Shown here piece by piece: positions 3,800 to 41,146 of a DNA stretch of 64,000 bases (positions within the stretch are counted from its first letter, which is position 1; the number at the start of each line of letters is the position of its first letter). The DNA is taken from assembly GCA_040755755.1 (NCBI GenBank), contig JBFLZW010000069.1, positions 57,642 to 121,641 on the forward strand, in the 5' to 3' direction. Source of the DNA: a bacterium. GTDB taxonomy: Bacteria > SZUA-182 > DTGQ01. The position numbers and the translations under genes were made by a program. Under the pieces are notes generated by a model that was not told the DNA's origin, did no database searches, and was given only the letters and a program-made list of their open reading frames with translations.

Positions 3800-4453
3800 T
3801 CAGATAACCGCCGTGCCCAGAATCGCCGCCGGACCAAGCAGGGTCGAGGCTGCGGGGGGCAGGGCCGGTATCGTCGAAGGTAAGGTTGTTGCCCCCAGGG
3901 CCAGCAAAAGAGCCGTAGAGATGGGCAAAGGAGAGGGCGGTGCATACGAGGGATATGCTGCCAGATAGGTTGGATTGGCAATAGGAACGGTAGTCTGTAT
4001 CCAGGTAGCCGGGGTTGGCAGCAGGGCGGCATATCCGCTCGGCAGGGAAATCGGCACTGGTGCCCCGGTGGTCGGATCGACCAGATAGCTTGGCGGCCAG
4101 GGATTTATGCCATAGAGAGGATCGTAGAAAAGCATACCTGACGGCGTATTATACAAAAGCCAGGGGTTTGGCCAGGCCGGATCCCAGGTCAAGCCGGGCT
4201 GAGAAGGCAATACCGTGGTCCTGGCCAGATTGCTGACAATCGGGGTGGGCATACCGGTTACCGGATCGACCGGTGACAAGGCAGGCGACCAGAGCGGCCA
4301 CAGAGTATTATAGGGTGGAAGTGCCTGCCAGTTCTGAGCCCGGACAGATGAAAAATTAATCAGGGAAAACCCGACTACGATCAGAATGAAAAACAAACCC
4401 TTTATCTGAGCTATTGGAGTTATCGGAGCATATATGCGGTGCCTGGTGTTCAT
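3800..4453 (-). CDS. LPPYN-family secreted protein, copy 1 (hybrid C-terminus)
   Basis: Exported protein of 217 residues with an N-terminal signal peptide (cleavage probably after SVRA). The mature N-terminus QNWQALPPYNTLWPLWSP is the hallmark of a family found five more times at 17.9-21.0 kb. Shared motifs follow in order: ALSPVDPVTGMPTP, TTVLPSQP, PWLLYNTPSG, YGINPWPPSYL and DPTTGAPVPISLP. Unlike the other copies, the last ~50 residues are Pro/Ala/Leu/Thr-rich with no SLLTPAQIWGLPPI ending, resembling the neighbouring Pro/Thr family instead. No Cys and no catalytic motif is seen. AAAGGAG precedes the ATG. It follows the Pro/Thr-rich gene at 4513-5058 by 59 bp on the same strand. Function unknown. 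Confidence 0.75.
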   Translation of the reverse strand: MNTRHRIYAPITPIAQIKGLFFILIVVGFSLINFSSVRAQNWQALPPYNTLWPLWSPALSPVDPVTGMPTPIVSNLARTTVLPSQPGLTWDPAWPNPWLLYNTPSGMLFYDPLYGINPWPPSYLVDPTTGAPVPISLPSGYAALLPTPATWIQTTVPIANPTYLAAYPSYAPPSPLPISTALLLALGATTLPSTIPALPPAASTLLGPAAILGTAVI

Positions 4454-4512: not shown

Positions 4513-5058
4513 CTATAAGAGCAAAAAAGAAAGCAGGGTATACGGTGATGTTCCCGCCAGAACCAGCGAGGTCAAAGCGCCATAGACAGAAGTGGTTGCC
4601 AGAGGCAAAACAGGTGCCGGAGCTGTTGCCGGAATCAGGGAGGTAAGCGTCAGCCCGGCTGGTGTGGTCGCAGGGGGAACAACAGTAGCAGCCGGTGCGG
4701 CTGCCGTAACGATGGGCGTGGCAGTAGTAACCACAGCCGCAGTTCTTGACAGGAAAAATGGCGATGGAACGGCCAGCAGGGGAAGAGGGGAAATCAGGGG
4801 CGGAGCCGGCAATACCGGCAGCGGAGGAGGAGGGAGTGTCGGCAGCAGAGGAACGCCTGATGACAAGGGAGTAGAGAAAAACGCAGGTACAAGGGAGACC
4901 TGAGCCTCGGCAGGGAGAGATATTATGGCCGGATTGCTCACGAGCAGGGTGAACAGAATAAATACCGTGAAGCGCAGGGGATACTTTGTCCCTAGTCGGG
5001 GTTTCATAATTGACTTCTGAGGTGATTTCATGGTTGTTGTCATAGGTGATTGTATCAT
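4513..5058 (-). CDS. Pro/Thr/Ala-rich secreted protein, copy 1
   Basis: Exported low-complexity protein of 181 residues. I place the start at the ATG at 5058 because GAGGAAGG lies just upstream; longer in-frame starts reach 5205. A signal peptide (LRFTVFILFTLLVSNPAIIS...) ends near PAEAQ. The mature part is dominated by Pro, Thr, Ala, Val and Leu, with PPPPLPVLPAPP and alternating TTA/PAAT stretches, and ends in hydrophobic residues (LLSFLLL). The composition and layout match the proteins at 21884-22507, 22586-23167 and 23331-23771. It probably lies upstream of copy 1 of the LPPYN family in one transcript. Probably a surface or matrix protein; this is inference only. Confidence 0.65.
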   Translation of the reverse strand: MIQSPMTTTMKSPQKSIMKPRLGTKYPLRFTVFILFTLLVSNPAIISLPAEAQVSLVPAFFSTPLSSGVPLLPTLPPPPLPVLPAPPLISPLPLLAVPSPFFLSRTAAVVTTATPIVTAAAPAATVVPPATTPAGLTLTSLIPATAPAPVLPLATTSVYGALTSLVLAGTSPYTLLSFLLL

Positions 5059-5241
5059 TTTAACCTTCCTCATAACCTTTGATAATTGTTTAATTTTGCA
5101 GGGTCCGGCATTGCCTGATAGTATTACTATTTTATAGTATATATCTTTAAGGTGCGAGTTATCAAATTTTTTTAATACCATCCATCTCCACCGATAATAC
5201 GCCAAAGTCCAAAGTTCAGGGGCAAAACAGCTTTACCCCTC

Positions 5242-5270
5242 TTGACAGACAGATTGTAATGTATTATCTT
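5242..5270 (+). promoter_or_regulatory. Sigma-70-type promoter for vapBC
   Basis: TTGACA (5242-5247), 17-bp spacer, TATCTT (5265-5270), about 50 bp before the antitoxin ATG at 5319. Perfect -35 and optimal spacing, with a fair -10. It is the only plausible promoter for the pair, as the preceding genes are on the other strand. An antitoxin operator would be expected to overlap it, but I see no clear palindrome. Confidence 0.5.
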
Positions 5271-5318
5271 TCTTTACTAGGTAATTTTATATATTGTTTA
5301 GCAAAAGGAGAATATACC

Positions 5319-5564
5319 ATGCGGACAAAGGTATCTTCCAAAGCACAGGTTTCCATCCCTGCGCCTATTCGCAAGGAATTCAATATCCGGCCAAATTCAC
5401 AACTGGAGTGGATTGCCGAAGACGGACTCATCACCGTTGTTCCTGTACCGGAAGATCCGGTAGCTTCATTCAGGGGACGCGGCAAAGGCCATTATTCAAC
5501 CTCTCAACTTGTCCTTGAAAGGCAAAAGGAGCGGGAGGAAGAAGATGGTAGAGACAGCAGGTAA
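5319..5564 (+). CDS. vapB: VapB-type antitoxin, AbrB/SpoVT DNA-binding domain
   Basis: Antitoxin of 81 residues. The N-terminal half MRTKVSSKAQVSIPAPIRKE is a canonical swapped-hairpin AbrB/MazE DNA-binding domain, and the polar C-terminal tail is the usual toxin-neutralising region. AAAAGGAG (5303-5310) sets the ATG at 5319. The 3' end overlaps the toxin gene by 20 bp, which implies translational coupling. It is expected to repress its own promoter together with the toxin, as in other VapBC systems. Isolated pair between minus-strand genes. Confidence 0.87.
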   Translation: MRTKVSSKAQVSIPAPIRKEFNIRPNSQLEWIAEDGLITVVPVPEDPVASFRGRGKGHYSTSQLVLERQKEREEEDGRDSR

Positions 5565-5994
5565 TATTTTTGCCCTGGACACCTCTGCCCTTTTAACCTT
5601 GTGGAATGATGAGCCTGGTGCTGATGAGGTCGAACGGATCCTCAATGATAAACACAAAAGCGTGATTGTTTCGTTCATGTCATATATGGAATGTTATTAT
5701 CGGGTTTGGAAAAGCCGTGGCCGGGAGCGAGGCAGGGAGATTTACACTTACCTGTTCACCTTGCCTATGGAACGGATCAACCTTACCGAAGAGATACTTC
5801 AGTCGGCAGCAGAGATAAAAGCATCTTATGCCCTTTCAGTAGCCGATAGCTGGATCATTGCAACCGCCAGGCTGCATGGCGCTATTCTTGTTCATAAAGA
5901 CCCGGAGTTTTTGCAGGTCGAGCCAGCCGTAAAAATGCTCAGTTTGCCCTTCAAACAAGGGGAAAGCCGGGAACCAGAGCTTGATGCGGGATGA
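5545..5994 (+). CDS. vapC: VapC-type PIN-domain toxin ribonuclease
   Basis: PIN-domain endoribonuclease of 149 residues. The acidic metal-site residues are visible: Asp in FALDTSALLTLW near the N-terminus, Glu in SYMECYYRVW, and Asp in LSVADSWIIATARLHGA, followed by HKDPEF. This is the standard PIN order, so the active site looks complete. The start is the ATG at 5545 because GGGAGGAA lies 5 nt upstream and the gene then overlaps vapB by 20 bp. VapC toxins usually cleave tRNA or rRNA; the target here cannot be predicted. A GC-rich hairpin follows 56 bp after the stop. Confidence 0.87.
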   Translation: MVETAGNIFALDTSALLTLWNDEPGADEVERILNDKHKSVIVSFMSYMECYYRVWKSRGRERGREIYTYLFTLPMERINLTEEILQSAAEIKASYALSVADSWIIATARLHGAILVHKDPEFLQVEPAVKMLSLPFKQGESREPELDAG

Positions 5995-14347: not shown

Positions 14348-17110
14348 TTACTGCGACTCCTGCCCTTCCATTGCCTCGATTTGCCCGAGGAAAGATCGGG
14401 CTTCCTGGTTATCCGGCTGGAGGCGAAGACTTTCCCGTATTTCGTCATATGCTGCGCGGTAGTTTTTCCGGCGAAAATAAACCGCCCCAAGGTAATAATG
14501 AGGAAGAGGATTTTCAGGGTCAAGGGCCTGGGCTCTTTGCCAGGCAATTATGGCCTTCCTGTCCTGTCCTGCCTGGGAAAAGGCCAGGCCGACATTAATA
14601 AGGTGCGTGGAAAGATCGATCCCTTTTCCTGCCAAAGCTGTCTTCCACTCGTCCAGGGCTTTATCGATAAGATCCTTTTCAAAGTAAGCATTTCCCAGGT
14701 TGAGGTGCGCTCCCGGCAGATCCGATTTGAGGGACAGCGCCTTTTCCCAGGACCGTATGGCCTGGTCGGTCTGGCCGAGGCCCTGCTGGGCCTTTCCGAG
14801 GGAATAATAGGCCAGAGGGTTCTCCGGCTGGCGGCTGAGCAGTTCCTGATATGAAGACAGGGCGGCAGGAAAGTCTCCCTTCTCAAGGTATAAAAGTCCA
14901 AGCTGGTTGTAGCCTTCAGCACAATCTTTATCCAGCCCGATAGCCCGGCGATACTCCTGCTCGGCCAGTGTATAGTCTTTCAGGGCAAAATAGGTCATAC
15001 CCAGATTGATTATTGCGTTCTGGTAAGCCGGACGAAGGGCAACCGCTTTTTTCAGTTCCTCCAGGGCCTCCGCAAAGCGGCCCTGATTCAGATAGATGCT
15101 TCCCAGGTTATTGTGGGCTTCAGGGTTATTGGGATCGAGGGAAATGGCCTGCCGGCAGTACTGTATGGCCAGATCAGGTTTTCCCTGGCTGCCGTAAATA
15201 AGCCCCAGGTTATGGTATGCGGAAGTATTTTGGGAATCGATCCTGATGGCAGTCTCAAAATGGGCTGCGGCCTTGTCCAGGTTCGCCTGACTGAGAAAAA
15301 GATTTCCCGCCTGGGTATGGGCTTCGGCATAGTTCGGGTCGATCCGCAGGGCCTGCTCGATGGCGGTCATGGCCTCATCTTTTTTGCCCAGTTTGTCACA
15401 GGCAATGCTCAGATTATGGTAGATCTCAGGATATTCAGCCCAGACAAGAGCGTGCCTGAATTCATCCAGGGCAAGATCGTAACTGCCCCGCTGATAATGT
15501 ATCAGCCCCAGTTGATTAAGGGCGTCGATATCGTCAGGATTAAGGCTCAGGGCTGTTTTAAACGAAGCTTCCGCCTGGTCGAAAAGCTTTTTTTCCTGAT
15601 AAGCCCGCCCCAGATTGACGTGGGCGGCAGTATTGTCAGGGTTGACCTGAATGATTTTCTGAAAGCAGAGTATGGCCTGATCATAGAGGTGAGCGTAAAG
15701 ATACGATATCCCCTGATCGAGATAATCGATGAGATAAATCATCTCCTTGGGATCCCGCCCTTGCGTTTCTGTGCCGGTCTTGGGTCTGGTCCATACATAG
15801 CCGAGGCTGCGCAGCCGGGCCTTTATATCCCCTTTCATTTCAACTTGCCGGACCGGTTCACCCGCGCGGGCAAGGGATTTTTTCAGCCTTTCAAGGTCGC
15901 TTTTCCCCTGGGCGGAAAGCCTGCTATCCTGTGCAGCCAGGTTCTTCATTTCGCCGGAATCTTCAGTCAGACGGTAAAGCTCTGGCCGGGGTGCCTGAAT
16001 ATATTTCCAATCCGGTCTTCGTATTCCTTCAAGCCTGCTCCAGCCAAAGTTAAGTTCCGGACTGAGGCTTTCCAGGAGGATTTCCTTATGAACCTCAGCG
16101 GCCTGGTTCCGAATCAGGGGAAGCAGGCTCTTTCCTGCCAGTTCAGGAATTGTGCCGAAACCATAGAGCTCAAGAACGGTGGGCAGGATATCCACGGTAC
16201 TCACCATTGCCTGGATGGATTTCCCCCCGGGCAAAAGACCGCCCGGCCCCTTGATGATCAAGGGAACCCTGGTCGTGGATTCATAAATGAAAATGGCATG
16301 GGTGGCCTCCCCATGTTCACCCAGGCTTTCTCCATGATCTGCCGTAAGGATGATAATTGTCCGATCGGTCAGCCCCATCTTCTCCATTTCCTTGAGTAAA
16401 TCACCAAGGCATTGATCGGTATAAGCGATTTCCCCGTCATAGGGACATTTCTGATAGCTGTGCGCAAAAGGGGCAGGAGGAGAATAAAGAGCATGGGGAT
16501 CGAAATAATGGAGCCAGAGAAAGAATTTCTCCCCTCCATGTTCCTGTAACCAGGAGAGCCCAAGGCGCGTGATTTCTTCAGCTTTTCGCTCGTTGTATAA
16601 AATCTCCGTCGGCTTTCCCCGTGCCGGAAGCCTGTCTTCATAAAAATCAAAGCCCTGATCCAGTCCGAAAATTGAGTCAAGGACGAAGGCCCCAATGCAG
16701 GCGGCTGTCTGGAAGCCATGCTCTTTCATGATTTCAGCCAGGGTGCGGGCATCCTTTCCGAGAATGAAGTTACCGTTATTGCGAACACCATGTTGAATGG
16801 GGTACAGGCCGGTCATGATCGAGGAGTGGGCAGGCAGGGTGATCGGGGCAGGGGTAATGGCCTGCCTGAACATTACGCCCTGAGCAGCCAGAGCATCCAG
16901 GGTGGGGGTTTTTATCTGCTGATAGCCATAGCATCCAAGATGATCGGCCCGTAAAGTATCGATGGTGATAAGAAGCAGGTTGAAGTCATTTTCTTTTTGC
17001 CTGCTCTTCAGTGCACCGGCGGAGGGAGCTGCCTGAAAAAAGAGCAGACCCGAAAGAATGACGGCTATCCCGAAAAGATTGCCTTTACCGTAGCAGGTCG
17101 TTGTAGCCAT
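14348..17110 (-). CDS. Exported sulfatase-like hydrolase fused to TPR repeats
   Basis: 920-residue protein with a signal peptide (1-33). Residues ~43-400 form an alkaline-phosphatase-superfamily sulfatase domain: LLITIDTLRADHLGCYGY (metal-binding Asp pair), TLPAHSSIMTGLYPIQHG, and LTADHGESLGEHGE. The position normally holding the formylglycine Cys/Ser (CxPxR) reads ITLPAHSS, so classical sulfatase chemistry is doubtful; Thr or Ser could serve as in phosphodiesterase/phosphotransferase relatives. Residues ~455-910 are about thirteen TPR repeats. It is the last gene of the minus-strand secreted-protein run, 25 bp after the Tyr/Gly-rich gene, so it may modify or organise those products. Confidence 0.83.
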   Translation of the reverse strand: MATTTCYGKGNLFGIAVILSGLLFFQAAPSAGALKSRQKENDFNLLLITIDTLRADHLGCYGYQQIKTPTLDALAAQGVMFRQAITPAPITLPAHSSIMTGLYPIQHGVRNNGNFILGKDARTLAEIMKEHGFQTAACIGAFVLDSIFGLDQGFDFYEDRLPARGKPTEILYNERKAEEITRLGLSWLQEHGGEKFFLWLHYFDPHALYSPPAPFAHSYQKCPYDGEIAYTDQCLGDLLKEMEKMGLTDRTIIILTADHGESLGEHGEATHAIFIYESTTRVPLIIKGPGGLLPGGKSIQAMVSTVDILPTVLELYGFGTIPELAGKSLLPLIRNQAAEVHKEILLESLSPELNFGWSRLEGIRRPDWKYIQAPRPELYRLTEDSGEMKNLAAQDSRLSAQGKSDLERLKKSLARAGEPVRQVEMKGDIKARLRSLGYVWTRPKTGTETQGRDPKEMIYLIDYLDQGISYLYAHLYDQAILCFQKIIQVNPDNTAAHVNLGRAYQEKKLFDQAEASFKTALSLNPDDIDALNQLGLIHYQRGSYDLALDEFRHALVWAEYPEIYHNLSIACDKLGKKDEAMTAIEQALRIDPNYAEAHTQAGNLFLSQANLDKAAAHFETAIRIDSQNTSAYHNLGLIYGSQGKPDLAIQYCRQAISLDPNNPEAHNNLGSIYLNQGRFAEALEELKKAVALRPAYQNAIINLGMTYFALKDYTLAEQEYRRAIGLDKDCAEGYNQLGLLYLEKGDFPAALSSYQELLSRQPENPLAYYSLGKAQQGLGQTDQAIRSWEKALSLKSDLPGAHLNLGNAYFEKDLIDKALDEWKTALAGKGIDLSTHLINVGLAFSQAGQDRKAIIAWQRAQALDPENPLPHYYLGAVYFRRKNYRAAYDEIRESLRLQPDNQEARSFLGQIEAMEGQESQ

Positions 17111-17135: not shown

Positions 17136-17660
17136 TCAGTTTTGCGGGGAGAGGAAATTTTCCTGAATGAAGTAGATGATTGACTCCTGAGGGGTCACCC
17201 CGATATTGCTGGCATAGTTATAGAGATTCGCCCCGATATAATCGGCTGTTTGATCATACATATAAAGAAAAGGAGTCTGACTGGCCAGTTCATAAAAATG
17301 GAGAGCATAGTTGAGATAATCGTACAGGGCGCAAATCTGCATAAGAGGATAATACATATTATAAGGACTCATGGTGGAATAATACGGAAGGGAGGTGGAG
17401 AAGAAGGGAGAACCATAATATCCTCCATACAGAGAATTGATCCCTCCGGAAAAGGGACTGAAATTGCCGTAATAGGGCAGGCTGTTCCAGCCGGACAGGT
17501 AATTTCCGTAAAGTCCGGGCAAGTAAAGGCCCTGGGCCGCGACTGAGGTGATAAACAAACCGATGATGAGCCCGCCAGTCAATGAGCTGACAAGAGATTT
17601 AACAAGAGAATGAGCAACTGCCCGGTTAGCTGTAAATTTCAGTAAGGAATTCAATTTCAT
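17136..17660 (-). CDS. Tyr/Gly/Ser-rich secreted protein
   Basis: Exported protein of 174 residues that I do not recognise. The signal peptide runs to SVAAQG. The mature N-half is Gly/Tyr/Ser/Pro-rich (GLYLPGLYGNYLSGW, NSLYGGYYGSPFF, LPYYSTMSPYNMYYP), the C-half is less biased (ALYDYLNYALHFYELA, YIGANLYNYASNIGV) and ends FIQENFLSPQN. Tyrosine content is extreme. The ATG at 17660 has AAGGAGATG upstream. It lies 25 bp before the sulfatase-TPR gene and 216 bp after LPPYN copy 2 on the same strand. Possibly an assembling or cross-linked surface protein; inference from composition only. Confidence 0.65.
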   Translation of the reverse strand: MKLNSLLKFTANRAVAHSLVKSLVSSLTGGLIIGLFITSVAAQGLYLPGLYGNYLSGWNSLPYYGNFSPFSGGINSLYGGYYGSPFFSTSLPYYSTMSPYNMYYPLMQICALYDYLNYALHFYELASQTPFLYMYDQTADYIGANLYNYASNIGVTPQESIIYFIQENFLSPQN

Positions 17661-17876: not shown

Positions 17877-18464
17877 CTAGATTGGCGGCAGCCCAAACAC
17901 CTGGGCAGCGGTTAACAGGGATGACGGACTCACGCCCAGTCCACTGCCGTAAGCCAGAAGATACGAGAGGTTAGCCAGATCGAACAGATAGATGGCCTGC
18001 GTTGTCGGCAGTGTAGCCGGCGTTGGATCAATAAGCGAGTAGCCTGCCAATAGACTGATGGGAACAGGGGCTCCGGTTACAGGATCGAGGTATTTGGCCG
18101 GAGGCCAGGGATTTATGCCATACAACACATCAAAATAAACCAGGCCGGTCGGGCTGTTATAAAAGAGCCAGGGCGGCTGCTCACCCATGGGCCAGCCGCT
18201 GGCCGGGCCAGCCAGTGTCCACCAGGTGGGGTCCAGGGCCAGGACAGGCTGTACTGGCAGTATCGTATTGCGGCTCAATGACGTAACCAGAGGTGTCGGA
18301 GTACCCGATGCATTCGGTGGAGAGAGCAGTGGAGACCAGAGCGGCCAAAGGACATTATAGGGCGGCATGGCTGTCCAGTTTTGCGCCTGGGCTGCCGGGA
18401 TAGGTGCTGCCAGCATGGCCAGGGCAAATAACACAATCACGAAATATCTTTTTTCCCTCAACAT
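17877..18464 (-). CDS. LPPYN-family secreted protein, copy 2
   Basis: 195-residue exported protein. Signal peptide cleaved near AQAQ, then NWTAMPPYNVLWPLWSP. Family motifs in order: GTPTPLVTSLSRNTILPVQP, PPWLFYNSPTGLVYFD, LYGINPWPPAKYLDP, VTGAPVPISL, and the C-terminal SLLTAAQVFGLPPI. It contains a ~17-residue insertion (ALDPTWWTLAGPASGWPMGE) before PPWLFYN compared with copies 3 and 5. No cysteine, no charged active-site pattern; rich in Pro, Leu, Trp and Tyr. GAGGAGGAA precedes the ATG. Most similar in its ending to copy 4 (LLAYGSGLGVSPSSLL versus LLGYGFGLGVNPASLL). Function unknown. Confidence 0.75.
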   Translation of the reverse strand: MLREKRYFVIVLFALAMLAAPIPAAQAQNWTAMPPYNVLWPLWSPLLSPPNASGTPTPLVTSLSRNTILPVQPVLALDPTWWTLAGPASGWPMGEQPPWLFYNSPTGLVYFDVLYGINPWPPAKYLDPVTGAPVPISLLAGYSLIDPTPATLPTTQAIYLFDLANLSYLLAYGSGLGVSPSSLLTAAQVFGLPPI

Positions 18465-18496
18465 GGCAATTCCTCCTCATATATATGATCAGGTGA

Positions 18497-19048
18497 TCAT
18501 ATTGGTGGCAAGCCCCAGATTTGAGCAGGTGTCAGCAGGCTGAGGAAAGATGGTCCGGTAATACCATAGGTCAGGGCATAGGTTGCATTGGCCAGCGGGA
18601 TATAGTACTCCAGGTGGGCCAATGACGTTGGCAGCAGGAGACTCCAGGTAAGCGGCAGGGTAATGGGAACCGGAGCACCGGTAGCGGGGTCCTGCATATA
18701 CTTGGGCGGCCAGGTATTGAGCCCGTAGATTTGATCGAAATAGAGCAATCCTCCCCCAAGAGCGGTCGGCGTGTTATAGAGAGCCCAGGGTAAAGCTTGA
18801 GCTGGGTCCCAGGCCAGACCCGGCTGTACCGGAAGTATCGTGTTTCTCGTGATATCGGTTACCAGGGGCGTACCTCCCGGTGACAGGGCAGGTGACCACA
18901 GGGGCCACAGGACATTATACGTGGGCATTGGCTGCCAGTTCGCTGCCCCGGCTGAGGTGATAACCAGCAGACTCAGGCAGCTTACGGTCAGCAGAGTGAA
19001 GGTAAAGATAATAAAGGTAGAGAGCAGGGATTTCCTTTCCTTAAACAT
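18497..19048 (-). CDS. LPPYN-family secreted protein, copy 3
   Basis: 183-residue exported protein. I place the start at the ATG at 19048, with GAAGGAG upstream, rather than the longer frame to 19165. The signal peptide ends near SAGA, then ANWQPMPTYNVLWPLWSP. Motifs: GGTPLVTDITRNTILPVQP, PWALYNTPTALGGG, YGLNTWPPKYMQDP, ATGAPVPITLP and C-terminal FLSLLTPAQIWGLPPI. The spacer after LSP is shorter than in the other copies (only GGTPL). The middle (ALYNTPxxxGGGLLYFD) groups it with copy 5. Its end is 32 bp from the start of copy 2, so the two are probably in one transcript. Confidence 0.75.
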   Translation of the reverse strand: MFKERKSLLSTFIIFTFTLLTVSCLSLLVITSAGAANWQPMPTYNVLWPLWSPALSPGGTPLVTDITRNTILPVQPGLAWDPAQALPWALYNTPTALGGGLLYFDQIYGLNTWPPKYMQDPATGAPVPITLPLTWSLLLPTSLAHLEYYIPLANATYALTYGITGPSFLSLLTPAQIWGLPPI

Positions 19049-19186
19049 AGGTGAATCTCCTTCTAAACCTGATAAACATGGTAAATCTTGCAGAGAATTT
19101 CTCCGGCTCCATTTTCCGGGCCTTGAGTCATCTCCTTCATTCCATAAATGTTTTCCAAAGACCATGCCTTCCCTAAAACTCCTCTC

Positions 19187-19756
19187 CTAGATCGGGGGAA
19201 GCCCCCAGATATCGGAATAGGTCAGGAGTGAGGCTGGATTTACTCCCAGGCCAAAGCCATAACCAAGCAGGTAGGTCAGATTGGCGGTGTCTATGAGCGA
19301 CAGGGCTGTCTCTTTCAGCAACGGCAGTGAGAGAAAGGTATAATCAGGCGGCAGGGTAAGGGGAACCGGCGCGCCGCTGACAGGATCGAGAAGTTTGGCC
19401 GGAGGCCAGGGATTGAGGCCATAGACGATATCATAAAAGACCACGCCTGTCGGCGTATTATAAAAGAGCCAGGGGAACGCGGTACCCATTGAGCCGATAT
19501 AGGTTGGCGTAGGATTCAGGGCCAGAACAGGCTGCACAGGGAGTATGGTATTACGGGAAAGCTCTGGAATTATCGGCGTGGGCAGGCCGGTAACCGGGCT
19601 TTTCGGTGACAGGGTGGGTGACCAGAGAGGCCACAGGACATTATACGGTGGCAGAGCCTGCCAGTTTTGAGCCTGGACCGCAGGGATGGCGAGCGTACCC
19701 GCCAGGGTCAAAAAAGATACCAGGATAACAGTAAAATATCTTGCTTTCTTATGCAT
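19187..19756 (-). CDS. LPPYN-family secreted protein, copy 4
   Basis: 189-residue exported protein with a signal peptide ending AVQAQ. The mature part begins NWQALPPYNVLWPLWSP. Motifs: LSPKSPVTGLPTPI, SRNTILPVQPVLALNP, PWLFYNTPTGVVFYD, YGLNPWPPAKLLDP, VSGAPVPLTLPPDY and C-terminal SLLTYSDIWGLPPI. GAGGAGAGG lies before the ATG. It follows copy 5 by 15 bp and precedes copy 3 by 138 bp. The WLFYNxPTG and AKxLDP variants make it the closest relative of copy 2. Unknown function. Confidence 0.75.
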   Translation of the reverse strand: MHKKARYFTVILVSFLTLAGTLAIPAVQAQNWQALPPYNVLWPLWSPTLSPKSPVTGLPTPIIPELSRNTILPVQPVLALNPTPTYIGSMGTAFPWLFYNTPTGVVFYDIVYGLNPWPPAKLLDPVSGAPVPLTLPPDYTFLSLPLLKETALSLIDTANLTYLLGYGFGLGVNPASLLTYSDIWGLPPI

Positions 19757-19771
19757 AACCTCTCCTCCTCT

Positions 19772-20323
19772 CTATATCAGTGGCGCCACTCCCCAGATAT
19801 CAGCGCTCGTCAGCAGACTGGTTATCGGCACTCCATACTGATAAGAGTAGAGAGCGTTAGCCAGAGGAATGAAGTATTCAAAGCCTTTCAAGGGGGTCGG
19901 CAGCAGAACTGACCAGCTGAGCGGCAGGGTTATTGGCTTCGGAGCCCCGGTGGCTGCATCTACCATATAGCTCGGCGGCCAGGGGTTCAAACCATAATAG
20001 AGATCATAGAACAACAACCCGCCGCCAAAGAGTGGCGGAGTGTTATAGAGGGCCCATGGTTTTCCCGTTCCGGCTGGCTGAAGCGGATCCCAGGCCAGAG
20101 CAGGCTGCACGGGAAGGATAGTGTTCCTGGTGAGGCTGGTTACCAGGGGAGTGGCTGCTCCAGTTGCCGGATTAACCGGTGATAAAGCCGGAGACCAGAG
20201 AGGCCACAGGACATTGTATGGCGGCAGTGCAGCCCACTGGGCCTGGACTACGGCGGGAAGAATAATGCTGATGGCAATTACCATAACAAAGGCAAAAATT
20301 AACGACTTCTTTCCTTTACACAT
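19772..20323 (-). CDS. LPPYN-family secreted protein, copy 5
   Basis: 183-residue exported protein; signal peptide to VVQAQ, then WAALPPYNVLWPLWSP. Motifs: LSPVNPATGAATPLVTSL, TRNTILPVQPALAWDP, PWALYNTPPLFGGGLLFYD, YGLNPWPPSYMVD, ATGAPKPITLPLSW, LLPTPLKGFEYFIPLANALY and C-terminal SLLTSADIWGVAPLI. GAGGTGACG lies before the ATG. It is only 15 bp upstream of copy 4, strong evidence that copies 5 and 4 are one translational unit. With copies 3 and 6 it forms the subgroup carrying a GGG before the (Y/F)D motif. Confidence 0.75.
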   Translation of the reverse strand: MCKGKKSLIFAFVMVIAISIILPAVVQAQWAALPPYNVLWPLWSPALSPVNPATGAATPLVTSLTRNTILPVQPALAWDPLQPAGTGKPWALYNTPPLFGGGLLFYDLYYGLNPWPPSYMVDAATGAPKPITLPLSWSVLLPTPLKGFEYFIPLANALYSYQYGVPITSLLTSADIWGVAPLI

Positions 20324-20463
20324 ACGTCACCTCATCGTCAATTTCTTGATCGCTACATTGTGAAATCACTTTAATTCATGAGGATGAAGAGGCTGGAGTG
20401 AAAAACCTCCTCCAGCCCTTGTCAATCCTTCATACTTCCAGGGGTAAGATACTCTCTCCATGA

Positions 20464-21024
20464 TTAAATGTATGGTATTCCCCACAACTGCGCCGGTGTT
20501 AACAATGATGAGAATTGCGCTGGAGTCAGCCCGTAGAGAAAAGCATAGGTCAAGTTGGCCAAATCGATGACCGGTGCATCGTGTTTCAAGGCAGTAGGCA
20601 GCAGAGTCGAATAACCGATCGGCAAAGTAATGGGAAGCGGAGCACCGCTCGCCGGATCGGTCAAATATGGAGGCGGCCAGGGCTTGAAGCCATATATATC
20701 TTCAAAGAAGGTTATCCCTCCACCAAAAGCAGGAGGAACATTATAGGCGAACCATACCGGCCCTTTGACGTTTAAAACCGGATCCCATACTATGACCGGC
20801 TGCACGGGAAGTACGGTGTTTTTGCTGAACTCCGTGATTATCGGCGTAGCCAGGCCGGTAGCCGGATCAACAGGAGACAGGGGGGGAGACCATAGCGGCC
20901 ACAGGACGTTATACGGCGGAAGTGCCGCCCAGGTCGCCTGTGCCTGCGCCGAGCCGGCACAAAGCAGGCTTCCGACAAGAGCAACCATGAAAATATATAA
21001 AGGAATTAATGATCTTTTCCTCAT
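20464..21024 (-). CDS. LPPYN-family secreted protein, copy 6
   Basis: About 186 residues from the ATG at 21024 (GTG at 21027 is an alternative; GGAAGG lies upstream). The signal peptide ends GSAQAQ, then ATWAALPPYNVLWPLWSP. Motifs: LSPVDPATGLATPI, SKNTVLPVQPVIVWDP, WFAYNVPPAFGGGITFFE, YGFKPWPPPYLTDP, ASGAPLPITLPIGY and C-terminal SLLTPAQLWGIPYI. It is the most diverged of the five clustered copies in the middle. It is first of the LPPYN genes in transcription order and follows a ~420-bp gap that may hold a promoter. Confidence 0.75.
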   Translation of the reverse strand: MRKRSLIPLYIFMVALVGSLLCAGSAQAQATWAALPPYNVLWPLWSPPLSPVDPATGLATPIITEFSKNTVLPVQPVIVWDPVLNVKGPVWFAYNVPPAFGGGITFFEDIYGFKPWPPPYLTDPASGAPLPITLPIGYSTLLPTALKHDAPVIDLANLTYAFLYGLTPAQFSSLLTPAQLWGIPYI

Positions 21025-21068
21025 CACTCAGATCCTTCCAATTAATGGTTGGTTAAAAGTTGTCATTA

Positions 21069-21446: not shown

Positions 21447-21866
21447 TTAAATTCTCAGAACAGGGGCAAGAGAGATGGGGGATGTCCGGTTTGAGCTTCC
21501 GGATAATAATGCTAAAGGACACGGGGTATTACCAATAGCAGCACCGTGAGCGTATGGCTCCAGGTCGCCAACACCCTTCCGTACAGTTTTTATAATGCCC
21601 CAGACTGGCAATACCTGCTCCAGGACATGAAAGTATCTGCCCGAACAGAATACTATTATTAGTAACTGACCTTGACAGTCAATTCTCCTGACAGGAATGA
21701 TTCCCTGTGCTTCGACAAGGGTATCTTCTTTTTGTGAACTAATTAAGATATCCAGAAATTCATCCGGCAGGAAATGAGTACACCGTGCAAAGGCCGCAGG
21801 ATCAAGAGCCAGTAGAGAAATAAAAATCACCACAAATACCAGGATTCTTTTCTTTCCGCGGTTCAT
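21447..21866 (-). CDS. Small exported protein, unknown
   Basis: About 139 residues from the ATG at 21866 (GAGGT upstream). The N-terminus KKRILVFVVIFISLLALDPAAFA is a convincing signal peptide. The mature region (RCTHFLPDEFLDILISSQKED..., with a hydrophobic middle LLIIVFCSGRYFHVLEQVLP) contains three Cys and no recognisable domain. Its reading frame begins within 20 bp of the end of the Pro/Thr-rich gene at 21884-22507, so it is probably in the same transcript. It differs from both repeated families in composition. Confidence 0.5.
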   Translation of the reverse strand: MNRGKKRILVFVVIFISLLALDPAAFARCTHFLPDEFLDILISSQKEDTLVEAQGIIPVRRIDCQGQLLIIVFCSGRYFHVLEQVLPVWGIIKTVRKGVGDLEPYAHGAAIGNTPCPLALLSGSSNRTSPISLAPVLRI

Positions 21867-21883
21867 CGCTGTGTACCTCAAGG

Positions 21884-22507
21884 TCAAATAAACGGCAATA
21901 ATGCTGTCAGACTCGGAAGAGCAGTGGTTGTAGTCAACGTCGTGGCAGCAGGGGTAACCTTGTTGGCGGCAGCGGCGGCAGGAGCGGCGATCGGTGCAGC
22001 AGGAGTGACGAGAGTTTGAGTCTGGTTATACGGTGGACCGGCTGGAACTGTAGAGGCCAGAAGTGCTGGCAGGAGCAGAGCAGCGGTAGGCGCTATTGTC
22101 GGAACGGTCGTTGTTGGAAGTGTTGTCGTTGGAACCGTGGTGGTCGGTGCAATTGCGGTAATAGGAACGGCACTGACGTTTACTACTGATAATGCAGGGT
22201 TGAAAATGATAGTTATAGTGGCCGCGGCATTTCTTACCATAGGCCGGGGAATACTCAGGGGAACAGGAAGCGGTGCCAAGGGAGATGGGTGCAGGGAAGG
22301 CGGAAGTGAGGGCAAGGGCAAGAAAGGCGCAGGCGTATAGAAAGCGGATGAAACAAACGGTGCAACTGGAGGGAATAGTTGGGGTATAGAGGAATAAGCC
22401 GTTTGCGGTCCAATCCCCCCGGAAAATACGGTCATCTGAGCTATGCCGGAACTGGAGGTGAATAATACAACACTTAATATTGGAAGTAAAATGGTCCACC
22501 TTTTCAT
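21884..22507 (-). CDS. Pro/Thr/Ala-rich secreted protein, copy 2
   Basis: 207-residue exported protein. Signal peptide to SSGIAQ, then MTVFSGGIGPQTAYSSIPQL, a Pro/Leu/Ser block (PFLPLPSLPPSLHPSPLAPL), a beta-rich stretch (AATITIIFNPALSVVNVSAV) and a low-complexity tail (TTTVPTTTLPTTTVP, then Ala/Pro/Thr). It ends SLTALLPFI. The first ~145 residues are nearly identical at both DNA and protein level to the next gene upstream (22586-23167), and the tails differ, so the pair is a recent tandem duplication followed by tail divergence. No cysteine. Likely surface or matrix protein (inference). Confidence 0.7.
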   Translation of the reverse strand: MKRWTILLPILSVVLFTSSSGIAQMTVFSGGIGPQTAYSSIPQLFPPVAPFVSSAFYTPAPFLPLPSLPPSLHPSPLAPLPVPLSIPRPMVRNAAATITIIFNPALSVVNVSAVPITAIAPTTTVPTTTLPTTTVPTIAPTAALLLPALLASTVPAGPPYNQTQTLVTPAAPIAAPAAAAANKVTPAATTLTTTTALPSLTALLPFI

Positions 22508-22585: not shown

Positions 22586-23167
22586 TTAAATGATTGGGAG
22601 TAACGGTAAAAGTGCAGAAATCCCGGGTAGAATCCCAGTAGTGGTAAGTCTTTTAACTGTGGGCGTAGCAGTTGGATTGTATGAATAGGGAGGACCAGTT
22701 GCTGCTGGAGCTGCAAGCAGTGCTGGAAGCAAAGCAAGTGCAGTAGGCGCTATTGCCGGAACGGTCGTTGTTGGAAGAGTTGTCGTTGGAACCGTGGTGG
22801 TCGGTGCAATTGCGGTAATAGGAACGGCACTGACATTTACTACTGATATCGCAGGATTGAAAATGATGGTGATCGTGGCCGCAGCATTTCTCAGCATGGG
22901 CCGGGGAATACTCAGGGGAACAGGAAGCGGTGCCAAGGGAGATGGGCGCAGGGAAGGCGGAAGTGAGGGCAAAGGCAAGAAAGACGCCGGTGTATAGAAA
23001 GCGGATGAAACAAACGGTGCAGATGGAGGGAATAGGTGGGGTATAGAGGAATAAGCCGTTTGCGGTCCAATCCCCCCGGAAAATACGGTCATCTGAGCTG
23101 TTGTGAAATCGAAAGATGCTAATAAAATGATAACCACTGTGGCGAGTGCCGCGGTCCATCTTTTCAT
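22586..23167 (-). CDS. Pro/Thr/Ala-rich secreted protein, copy 3
   Basis: 193-residue exported protein; signal peptide to FTTAQ, then the same MTVFSGGIGPQTAYSSIP opening, Pro/Leu/Ser block, AATITIIFNPAISVVNVSAV and TTTVPTTTLPTTTVP tract as copy 2. The last ~45 residues (GPPYSYNPTATPTVKRLTTT, ILPGISALLPLLPII) diverge. It is 78 bp upstream of copy 2. Copies of the 5' part read open in a second frame too, but the signal peptide and protein conservation fix this frame. Function unknown. Confidence 0.7.
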   Translation of the reverse strand: MKRWTAALATVVIILLASFDFTTAQMTVFSGGIGPQTAYSSIPHLFPPSAPFVSSAFYTPASFLPLPSLPPSLRPSPLAPLPVPLSIPRPMLRNAAATITIIFNPAISVVNVSAVPITAIAPTTTVPTTTLPTTTVPAIAPTALALLPALLAAPAATGPPYSYNPTATPTVKRLTTTGILPGISALLPLLPII

Positions 23168-23330: not shown

Positions 23331-23771
23331 CTATATAAACAATGATGACAAGTAGGCGAAAAGCAGAGGATTAGCCACAGAAAGAGGAGTCGGGGCGTAG
23401 AGTGAACTGGCGTAAATGATAGCAAGAATACTAAACAAGGGCGCAGGTGCTGCGGTAGTAGTTGTTGGTGTTGTGGAAACAATAGTTGCTGCCGATGTCG
23501 GAGTAACCACTGTTGGCGCTCCAATGACTACCACTCCTGCTGTCGGGCTTACGGCGGTAAGCCCGGGGGAGATGATAATGGTAGCCTGGGGCGATCTTGA
23601 AAACGGTGTCGGCAAGATTGGTGCTGGAAAGAATTGAGATGGCGGAGCCTGTACCCAGGGCATGAATGCAGGATAGGGTACAGGATATTGACACCCGCCC
23701 TCCTGAAAGGCAAATCCTGAGATAATAACGGACAACATGAGGATAAGACAAATCTTTTGAGTATGGCACAT
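23331..23771 (-). CDS. Pro/Thr/Ala-rich secreted protein, copy 4 (short)
   Basis: 146-residue exported protein. Signal sequence MCHTQKICLILMLSVIISGF, with a Cys shortly after (EGGCQYP), so lipid attachment is possible but the lipobox is poor. The mature part is PAFMPWVQAPPSQFFPAPIL, then a beta-rich ATIIISPGLTAVSP stretch equivalent to AATITIIFNPALSVV of copies 2-3, then a Thr/Ala/Pro tract and a hydrophobic end (LLFAYLSSLFI). GGGAGGAGA lies before the ATG. It is the first gene of the minus-strand run, 163 bp before copy 3. Confidence 0.65.
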   Translation of the reverse strand: MCHTQKICLILMLSVIISGFAFQEGGCQYPVPYPAFMPWVQAPPSQFFPAPILPTPFSRSPQATIIISPGLTAVSPTAGVVVIGAPTVVTPTSAATIVSTTPTTTTAAPAPLFSILAIIYASSLYAPTPLSVANPLLFAYLSSLFI

Positions 23772-37692: not shown

Positions 37693-37717
37693 CCCTTATT
37701 TGAGGAGAGATGGAAAG

Positions 37718-40700
37718 ATGGCCGAGAATATTCCTGCAAAATCAATCCTGACATTGGTAGCATCGATGGTGCTCGTTATCAATTCCTTCCTCGTAACCTC
37801 GTGCAGCAAGACTCCTTCAGACGATGCTCCGGGTAAAAGTGAACAGAATATTACTCCCGGCGGTTCTGCTGATACAACCGGAATGAGTGCTATCAGATTG
37901 TCTTCAGAGAATGGCAATACGGTCATTGGTATCAACAGCAACCTGGAGATCAGAGTAGACCTGATGACCAAGAGCGGCCAGCCGGTGAATGGCAAGACGA
38001 TAATAAACTTTGAACTGAGTGATCCGACACGGGGCAGGATTACCAGCCCGGCCATAATCAGCGAAGGAAGCGGAACGGTTAATTTTATTTCGAAGGATAG
38101 CGAAGGGATCGTCACCCTTACCGCCAGCAACGAAAAAGGGGATATCAAGGGAACCCTTGATATTCAGGTTTCCGATGTTCCTCCGCCAGCGACATTGGAC
38201 ATCAGCGCCGACCCTCCCCGGATATCGATCAGGGGAACATCGCACATCATCGCGACTGTATTGGATAAGAATGGCAATTCAGTAAAGGATGGAACACAAG
38301 TTAATTTCATGGTCAGCAAAGATGCCTACGGTACAGTAACTGAAAGCGCCTTGACTATCAGCGGGAAAGCATCGGCTACCTTCACGGCTGCTGAAACTTC
38401 CGGCGAAGTTGAAATTACCGCCACATCCGGCTCAGCATCAGAGACTACTCAAGTAACCATTGCCAGCGCCGATGTAGGAAGCATAGAGTTTGTATCGGCA
38501 GTACCGAATATCGTGGGCTTGAAGGGAGCGGGACAGGTCGAAGTTTCAGCGGTTACTTTTTTGGTTAAAAACAGCCAGGGAACTCCTGTCCAGGATGCCC
38601 AGAGCGTATATATTGAATTATTTGGTCCGGGCGGCGGAGAGTACCTTGAAGAGGTCGGTCGGGAAACAATTACCGTCAGCACGGAAAATGGTGCAGCCAG
38701 AGTGAATTTTCACAGCGGGGTAATTCCCGGGCCGGTGACACTCAGAGCAACCGTGACCGCCGCGGGAGGAAACAAACTGTCAACCTCTTCGGGAATAATT
38801 TCCGTAGGTGGCGGGAAACCTACGGAGAGCCAGTTCTCTCTATCCGCTTCCGTCTTGAATCTTGAAGGTCTGGCGTATGATGGAATCGAATCGAAGATAA
38901 ACATCAATCTCGCCGACCGATATGGCAATGTCGAGGTTCTGGAGGGAACGACGGTCTCCTTCTATACCGAGAGCGGGGGTATCTCCCGGTCGGTAGCCAT
39001 GAATAAAACAGGCTCCGGATCGGTTACTTACCGGACTCAGCGCCCCATTCCTCATAAAACTCTTCCTGAACAGTCCGAGATTGACTTTATGGATCAACTC
39101 CATTCCCTGTTCAATATTCCAATGAACTATACCGATCCTAACAGCCCGAATCCCCGCGATGGTCTGTGTACGATTATCGCCGTTGTTGACGGGGAGGAAG
39201 AGTTCACCGATCGGAATGCGAATGGACAGTATGACCCCAATGAACCATTTATCGATTCATATAGTGATATTTTTATCGACATGGACGACGACAACTCCAT
39301 TGATGAAGAATTTGAAGACCTGGTAATTGACCAGAACAACAATGCAGTATTTGATGGAGAAAACGGGCGCTGGGATGGAAATAAAAAAATTTATAAAGCC
39401 ATCAATCTGCTGATTACCGGCGAACCATCAATCCATACCGATATTCATACCCAGCTGAGTTCGGTCCCGAATGGTATCGTTACCAGTAAAAGCTCACTGG
39501 TTTTCCATGTATTTATCGGCGATCGTAATTTCAATATCCCGATTGGAGGAACATCCTTTTCCATCTCGACTGATAAGGGTAAATTAAGCGGGACAAAATC
39601 CTATATATTTGGAAATACCTGCTCCACTGCCGGAGGGCCAATCTTTTCCTATGTCCTGTCGTATGAAAACGAGAAAGACCCGCCATCGATGGCTGAAGTG
39701 ACTATGAGCCTGTCCTGGAAGGGACAGACGAAATCATTGAGCTGTGCCGTACCGGTAGGTCCGGCCTCAAGCGGACCGGTGAACATCGTCAGCGACGATG
39801 TCGGAAGCATCGAGTTCGTATCGGCAACCCCTGCAGCTATCGGGCTGAAAGGATTAGGACAGGTTGAAATTTCAACGGTTACTTTCCTGGTTAAGAACAA
39901 TAAGGGAACTTTTATCCAGGATCCCCAGGATGTAAGCTTTGAGCTCTTTGGACCTGGTGGCGGAGAGTATCTTGAGGAAGGAGACCCGAATATTAATCAG
40001 GGCAAAACAGCCACAGTCAGCTCAGAAGGGGGTATGGCCAGAGTGAATGTTCACAGCGGTATAATTCCCGGCACCGTGACACTCAAGGCAACCGTAGCAA
40101 TGGCAGGAGGCACCACCCTGACGGCGTATTCAGGGACAATTTCCATAGGGGGAGGAAAACCTTCGGAAAGCCATTTTTCGCTGTCGGCAGTTAGTCCCCT
40201 GACCCCACCCCACCCCTACGTCTCAGGCGGTCCTCTCAATCTCCCGGGACTGGCTTTTGATAATTTCATATCAGAAATATGGGTTCATCTGGCTGACCGC
40301 TATGGCAATGTCGAAGTCCTGGAGGGAACGACGGTGTCCTTCTACAGCGAGGCAGGCGGTATCAACCGGTCGGCGGCCCTGGATCAAAGCGGTTCCGGGG
40401 TAGTTACCTTTAGAACCCAGGACCCTGTTCCGTATAAGACACTCCCGAAAGAGTATGAAATCACCTTTATGAACCGATTAAATTCTCTGTTCGGTATTCC
40501 TATTGACATCACTGATCCTGAGAGTCCAAATCCACGGGATGGCCTGTGCACGATTGTCGCGGTCGTCGATGGGGAAGAGGAGTTTACCGATACCAATGCC
40601 AACGGGCAATTTAACCCCACCGAACCCTTTGTCGATACCTATGACGATATTTTTATTGATATGGATGATGATAATATCATTAATACGAATTTTGAAGATT

Positions 40701-41146
40701 TGTTAATTGACCTGAACGGAGATTCAGCCTTCGATGGAATAAACGGCCGATGGGATGGAAATAAGAAGATTTGTAAAACCATTAAGCTCCTGCTGACCGG
40801 TGAACCCTATATCTGGACAAACCTTGAGACCAACCTCTGGCAGATAGGGGGTATAGTTACACCGTCTAACCCGTTGTATTTCGAGGTGTTCATTGGAGAC
40901 CGCAACTATAACATACCCTGTGGCGGGACCTCCTACAGCATCTCAACTGATAAAGGTATTCTGGCCGGATCAAAATCGTTCGTGTTTTCCGATACAAGCT
41001 CCACGGCTGGAGGACCCATCAAGGCGTATAGTTTCTCCTATGCCGATCCCAACAATGTCGCCCCGCCTGATACGGCTACGCTGAACATGAGCTTAAGCTG
41101 GCAGGGAATGACAAAATCCGAATCGTACACCATACCCATTGACTGA
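37718..41146 (+). CDS. Large Ig-like lipoprotein with duplicated module
   Basis: 1142-residue lipoprotein; signal peptide ends FLVTSC (Cys29). The start is the ATG at 37718 with GAGGAGA upstream (TTG at 37700 is in frame). Residues ~45-250 are two or three bacterial Ig-like (Big1/invasin-type) domains. Then a ~430-residue module occurs twice: DVGSIEFVSAxP...LKGxGQVE...FLVKN, FGPGGGEYLEE, a second Ig-like part (ADRYGNVEVLEGTTVSFY), and an acidic segment with Asp/Asn calcium-loop-like runs (DxNANGQxxPxEPFxDxYxD, DMDDDN). It lies 25 bp after pilQ, so it is probably a pilus-associated surface protein or adhesin; that role is inference. Confidence 0.82.
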   Translation: MAENIPAKSILTLVASMVLVINSFLVTSCSKTPSDDAPGKSEQNITPGGSADTTGMSAIRLSSENGNTVIGINSNLEIRVDLMTKSGQPVNGKTIINFELSDPTRGRITSPAIISEGSGTVNFISKDSEGIVTLTASNEKGDIKGTLDIQVSDVPPPATLDISADPPRISIRGTSHIIATVLDKNGNSVKDGTQVNFMVSKDAYGTVTESALTISGKASATFTAAETSGEVEITATSGSASETTQVTIASADVGSIEFVSAVPNIVGLKGAGQVEVSAVTFLVKNSQGTPVQDAQSVYIELFGPGGGEYLEEVGRETITVSTENGAARVNFHSGVIPGPVTLRATVTAAGGNKLSTSSGIISVGGGKPTESQFSLSASVLNLEGLAYDGIESKININLADRYGNVEVLEGTTVSFYTESGGISRSVAMNKTGSGSVTYRTQRPIPHKTLPEQSEIDFMDQLHSLFNIPMNYTDPNSPNPRDGLCTIIAVVDGEEEFTDRNANGQYDPNEPFIDSYSDIFIDMDDDNSIDEEFEDLVIDQNNNAVFDGENGRWDGNKKIYKAINLLITGEPSIHTDIHTQLSSVPNGIVTSKSSLVFHVFIGDRNFNIPIGGTSFSISTDKGKLSGTKSYIFGNTCSTAGGPIFSYVLSYENEKDPPSMAEVTMSLSWKGQTKSLSCAVPVGPASSGPVNIVSDDVGSIEFVSATPAAIGLKGLGQVEISTVTFLVKNNKGTFIQDPQDVSFELFGPGGGEYLEEGDPNINQGKTATVSSEGGMARVNVHSGIIPGTVTLKATVAMAGGTTLTAYSGTISIGGGKPSESHFSLSAVSPLTPPHPYVSGGPLNLPGLAFDNFISEIWVHLADRYGNVEVLEGTTVSFYSEAGGINRSAALDQSGSGVVTFRTQDPVPYKTLPKEYEITFMNRLNSLFGIPIDITDPESPNPRDGLCTIVAVVDGEEEFTDTNANGQFNPTEPFVDTYDDIFIDMDDDNIINTNFEDLLIDLNGDSAFDGINGRWDGNKKICKTIKLLLTGEPYIWTNLETNLWQIGGIVTPSNPLYFEVFIGDRNYNIPCGGTSYSISTDKGILAGSKSFVFSDTSSTAGGPIKAYSFSYADPNNVAPPDTATLNMSLSWQGMTKSESYTIPID

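Follow-up and report, generated by a model that had tools for sequence, protein, structure and literature searches.

Several kinds of exported structural proteins are known in bacteria, such as chaplins, BslA, CsgA and S-layer proteins, which are typically small, Sec-exported and often paralogous, with many aromatic or hydrophobic residues and few charged ones. The protein family described here resembles them in all these respects, but matches none of them in sequence or fold; it is very rich in proline, its copies in the window contain no cysteine, and its predicted structure is not repeat- or amyloid-like. Functional amyloids have been reviewed (PMC5618241), and a second point of comparison is provided by the FESNov families, which are novel families found in uncultivated taxa and include order-level synapomorphies (PMC10849945). 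Like these, our family occurs in all genomes examined of one uncultivated order, is absent elsewhere, has no homologs, and is under purifying selection in a conserved gene context. It differs from them in its 13-33 old paralogs per genome, its variable-loop architecture, and two confident structure models without a match in the PDB. A family without known relative and a candidate fold are what is new here, whereas the general notion of an exported structural protein peculiar to one lineage is not.

We estimate a probability of roughly one half that the family provides the building blocks of an exported or surface structure, on the grounds of its uncharged make-up, its high and stable number of paralogs, its variable-loop domain and a dedicated exported partner. 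An earlier note on this DNA had proposed a multi-copy exported structural or matrix protein; the multiple copies were confirmed, the predicted export was supported, and a structural or matrix role is still our best guess, but the globular models do not agree with a low-complexity matrix chain.

Array layout, composition and export

The window, i.e., the whole stretch of 64,000 nucleotides that was analyzed, belongs to a genome of 5.26 Mb in 88 contigs (98% complete). All six genes of the earlier note were found as open reading frames on the minus strand (Table 1), and their predicted products share the ordered motifs that it lists, can be aligned from end to end of the mature part, where 46 columns are invariant, and are 49-61% identical to the first copy. 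Because HMM matches within the same genome reached 1e-82 and numbered 33, the shared motifs are not due to chance. The description of five tandem copies and a distant one applies within the window, but was too low as a total, as this genome alone has 33 copies and the five genomes together 101. Copy 2 most likely begins at 19048, where a good ribosome-binding site precedes the start (AGAAGGAGATTCACCT-ATG), and not at 19165, so that the intergenic gaps in the array are 32, 138, 15 and 140 bp, instead of the 15-32 bp given before. Copy 5 starts with either an ATG at 21024 or a GTG at 21027.

Table 1. Family copies and neighboring genes in the window, with coordinates, strand and remarks.
Feature	Coordinates	Strand	Remarks
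Family copy 1, 195 aa	17877..18464	-	End of the array in the direction of transcription; ortholog L039:8001-8588, dN/dS 0.057
Family copy 2, 183 aa	18497..19048	-	Orthologs L039:7405-7959 and L040:2059-2634
Family copy 3, 189 aa	19187..19756	-	Best HMM score of the genome, 1.8e-82; orthologs L039:6631-7203 and L040:1269-1874
Family copy 4, 183 aa	19772..20323	-	AlphaFold2 model (pLDDT 93.6, pTM 0.88); ortholog L039:6008-6574
Family copy 5, 187 aa	20464..21027	-	First of the array; orthologs L039:5322-5882 and L051:6420-6998
Family copy 6, 217 aa, longer Pro/Ala loop	3800..4453	-	Second AlphaFold2 model; ortholog in L042
Tyr/Gly-rich exported protein, likely partner	17136..17660	-	217 bp downstream of the array
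Exported sulfatase-fold (PF00884) and TPR protein, 920 aa, PITLPAH	14348..17110	-	Similar neighbor at other family loci
Small exported protein (RCTHxxxxEFL)	21447..21887	-	Upstream of the array

The composition of 85 mature sequences was dominated by proline (17.7%), leucine (15.8%), threonine (9.7%), alanine (8.4%), tyrosine (5.9%) and tryptophan (4.7%), with approximately 5% charged residues and 0.1% cysteine. The mature proteins of the window contain no cysteine, 1-4 Lys plus Arg, 4-8 Asp plus Glu and 6-8 Trp, in agreement with the earlier characterization of the family as nearly free of cysteine and of charged catalytic residues and rich in Pro, Trp, Leu and Tyr. As charged residues are this scarce and D80 (87%) is the sole well-conserved one, catalysis is unlikely, which argues against the family being an enzyme. 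A leader with Lys or Arg and a hydrophobic stretch was recognized by a simple rule in 82 of 84 members, and an AxA-like box in 59 of 84; the family is thus predicted to be Sec-exported.

Taxonomic range, age and selection

The family was present in all five genomes of the window's order, with 33 copies in the window genome and 20, 14, 21 and 13 in the others. Among 60 relatives, it was confined to these five genomes. A search with a 60-sequence profile found it in 5 of 386 genomes, with no member in the four genomes of other families of the class or in 377 further genomes, so that the expected taxonomic restriction was borne out (5/5 genomes of the order, 0/381 other genomes searched). When approximately 85,000 named species genomes were scanned by a procedure that depends on near-exact matches to short peptides and may overlook distant relatives, the motif family appeared in only four MAGs, HOT.CON.50, Zod_Metabat.896, CSMAG_150 and CSMAG_2299. 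Zod_Metabat is the bin prefix of the Zodletone spring MAGs (PMC8248873), and CSMAG is the prefix of a cold-seep catalogue (PMC10491686). CSSED10-310 was considered as the phylum on account of the Zodletone MAGs, but was not adopted, since Zod_Metabat.896 is outside the five genomes of that paper (PMC8248873). No relative was found on viral contigs or plasmids, both of which were searched. The family is specific to one uncultured bacterial order and has been found there alone so far; it is an order-level synapomorphy as defined by presence in at least 90% of a clade's genomes with 100% specificity (PMC10849945), the order comprising five genomes here. It marks a bacterial order that is known here from metagenomes alone. 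The 101 genes of the five genomes fall into 76 loci, most copies being dispersed single genes or pairs; arrays are the exception, contrary to the expectation that members would usually occur in them.

The relationships among the copies were examined with a tree of 146 columns and 85 rows, in which many deep forks were left open. Most copies of the sister genome HOT.CON.50 had a one-to-one counterpart in the window genome. The array arrangement 20464, 19772, 19187, 18497, 17877 was identical in L039, and was retained for three members in L040, which comes from another family of the order. Between orthologs, dN/dS of the mature part (NG86; rough values, as dS is near 1) was 0.04-0.08 for the array copies and 0.17 for the copy at 3800, and the mature part is under strong purifying selection, in line with the reading of the earlier note. 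The copies are an old, stable set of distinct paralogs and not the outcome of a recent amplification, and the presence of 13-33 of them in each genome points to a considerable investment in an exported structure of some kind.

These data bear on two other explanations. A housekeeping domain of the periplasm or outer membrane, e.g., a chaperone or a spacer in the envelope, with copies multiplied for dosage, would fit the Sec leader, the Gram-negative envelope genes in the window and the presence of the family in all five genomes of the order. We regard it as clearly unlikely, since the paralogs differ by approximately 40-50% and are kept one-to-one, which points to distinct roles rather than dosage. 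Secreted proteins for antagonism or signalling, diversified in the loop, would likewise be exported, occur as multiple paralogs and carry a variable segment between conserved ends; however, the very low dN/dS and stable one-to-one orthology, together with the lack of an adjacent immunity-like gene, a toxin domain or hypervariability, make this the least probable of the explanations.

Predicted fold and the variable loop

Pfam and NCBIfam gave no family for the six window copies, and neither did Pfam and PHROGs for 60 members; a lone sub-threshold match to YL1_C (E 0.076) was taken as chance. PDB sequences yielded no match at E ≤ 1 with profiles of 6 and 60 sequences. The mature region is thus without a match to any characterized family in Pfam, NCBIfam, PHROGs and the PDB, and the earlier note was right not to recognize it.

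AlphaFold2 models were obtained for two different members, copy 4 (Table 1) and the copy at 3800 (pLDDT 91.6, pTM 0.83), from input alignments of 60 and 61 sequences. Both models show the same elements, namely, six short strands, one long helix and, at the C terminus, a short helix, and the mature protein is confidently predicted to be a compact globular domain rather than a low-complexity matrix chain. A Foldseek search of PDB structures gave no significant match for either model (best E 2.9 and 4.3), VIA-align found no Z ≥ 2 among 107 and 104 PDB chains for the two models, and no viral structure model matched the predicted domain. Because Foldseek can miss folds with little regular secondary structure, and because a confident model does not by itself establish a fold, we consider the domain a candidate for a new fold. 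If the fold is new, a well-defined domain without PDB relative that is nearly uncharged and contains approximately 18% proline would be unusual for a folded protein.

The conserved ending (SLLTPAxIxG) was confidently modelled, with a pLDDT of approximately 92-95, and the loop preceding it was lower in the second model, at 74-79 against 92 for the ending. In 71 members, the distance from the long helix to the ending varied from 15 to 163 residues, with the ending still recognizable; in long-loop members, the loop contains 29% Pro, 18% Thr and 15% Ala, also Val, and no charge. The pattern of a divergent middle and a conserved ending reported earlier was thus seen again, but on the models it is best understood as a folded domain, the ending included, that is interrupted by an inserted loop. 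The SLLTPAxIxG helix is predicted to return to the core and dock there, as judged from pLDDT alone. A role of the ending as a sorting signal was considered and is less likely, since the models confidently include it in the domain.

The main rival to the building-block reading is that the proteins are exported ligand-binding or adhesion modules, in which a conserved Trp/Tyr/Asn pocket would bind a glycan or hydrophobic compound and the loop and tail would set the specificity of each paralog. The invariant aromatic and amide residues W3, Y9, N10, W13, W16, Y66 and N129 and the many old, non-redundant paralogs are consistent with such modules. Nevertheless, the most conserved residues are mostly of the core type (Pro, Trp and Leu) and no carbohydrate-binding or adhesin fold appeared among the structure-search matches, so that we consider this rival rather unlikely.

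The motif DPxTGxPxPI is present twice per protein, once in each half of the domain. A comparison of the halves by hhalign gave a probability of 43% and an E-value of 2.4e-4 in a single comparison over 22-24 columns, which is suggestive of a trace of internal duplication, although we do not claim one.

Linked neighbor genes and a possible assembly

Nine genomes of the class were searched for the Tyr/Gly-rich protein next to the array; all six copies belong to the order, and five of them lie 195-244 bp from a family gene at two types of locus. Of 57 exported sulfatase-fold/TPR proteins (750-1000 aa), 9 are encoded no more than 1 kb from a family gene, all on the same strand; TPR was confirmed by Pfam in five linked proteins or relatives, and the others were assigned from the sulfatase domain and reading-frame length alone. 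Within 2 kb, 1.5 were expected (binomial P 1.5e-5, with shared descent ignored). The window array and its relatives have this neighbor, as does a second conserved locus (G000 C76, G002 C4, G003 C273); it is also encoded upstream of family copies in G000 C83, G003 C31 and G004 C84. The linkages perhaps represent four to five independent events for the sulfatase-fold protein and two for the Tyr/Gly-rich protein. Weak homologs of the small exported protein upstream of the array lie beside the second Tyr/Gly-rich locus (blastp E of about 1e-4 between loci), a tentative relationship.

The domains of the sulfatase-fold protein are known ones, of the alkaline-phosphatase superfamily. It carries PITLPAHSSIMTG at the position of the catalytic motif, with similar residues in four other copies, and the formylglycine sulfatase motif C/S-x-P-x-R was not found in it. 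Because PITLPAH stands in place of that motif, the protein probably acts through a Thr nucleophile and would be a phosphodiesterase or transferase, not a formylglycine sulfatase. An enzyme of this fold could act on glycans, a further point for the ligand-binding modules discussed above, but no polysaccharide locus was tied to the family copies.

In the building-block reading, we infer the following arrangement. The motifs PPYNxLWPLWSPxLSP, T(V/I)LPVQPxLxWDP, LYNTP and WPP would form the core, followed by the long helix, and the short C-terminal helix SLLTPAxIxG would cap it. Between helix and cap, the uncharged Pro/Thr/Ala/Val loop, from 15 to more than 160 residues long, would provide each paralog with an individual exposed face. 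The common domain may pack against its own copies and other uncharged exported proteins, with the Tyr/Gly-rich protein as a likely partner in the structure, and the sulfatase-fold/TPR protein would probably modify or handle the assembly or a surrounding polymer. The most specific version, a modular block of a new fold whose uncharged scaffold displays varied Pro-rich loops in 13-33 paralogs of a multi-component structure unique to the order, with the Tyr/Gly-rich partner and the modifying enzyme, is possible but doubtful.

Multiheme cytochromes near some copies raise another explanation, namely, that the uncharged aromatic proteins package them as a scaffold for extracellular electron transfer. 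An eight-heme protein with a Pfam cytochrome c7 domain (L079:5210-6742, +) lies 274 bp downstream of a five-copy array, another lies 392 bp from a copy in L062, and a six-heme NapC-like protein lies 346 bp from a copy in L091. However, the density of multiheme genes was about the same at a distance from the family (4 in 380 kb) as close to it (5 in 360 kb), only 3 of 34 cytochrome-c3 loci are within 6 kb of a copy, and the window array has no cytochrome. With multiheme genes not enriched near the family, we rejected this explanation as improbable. The N-terminal part of the eight-heme cytochrome in L079 is itself uncharged and aromatic.

The window also encodes other short exported proteins that are uncharged and rich in Pro and Thr but show no sequence relationship to the family, at 4513-5205, 21884-22507, 22586-23167 and 23331-23771 (-). 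Random genome stretches contained approximately nine uncharged Pro-rich exported proteins per 380 kb, so that short proteins of this kind may number around 100 in the genome. Co-location with the family was dismissed as a signal, because such proteins are equally common far from it and their proximity does not speak for a joint structure. A second tandem array (L106:16031-18532, -) encodes five exported proteins with a common ATIIL motif, three of which end like ANPLLFAxLSxL and whose make-up is akin to that of the protein at 23331-23771. Tails of the APTVVAPTVI type are very similar in family members (L002, L004, L055) and in an unrelated exported protein (L105:17524-18441). The similarity of tails to other exported proteins reached Z values of up to 11, where both sides are P-x-x-P repeats whose periodicity is removed by shuffling; the tails may be either a shared module or convergent repeats.

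Elsewhere in the window, a pair of a MazE-type antitoxin and a PIN-domain toxin (5259-5994, +) lies near the copy at 3800, and a protein of 1148 aa with invasin-type Ig domains (37700-41146, +) is encoded directly behind an apparent pilM-pilQ operon.
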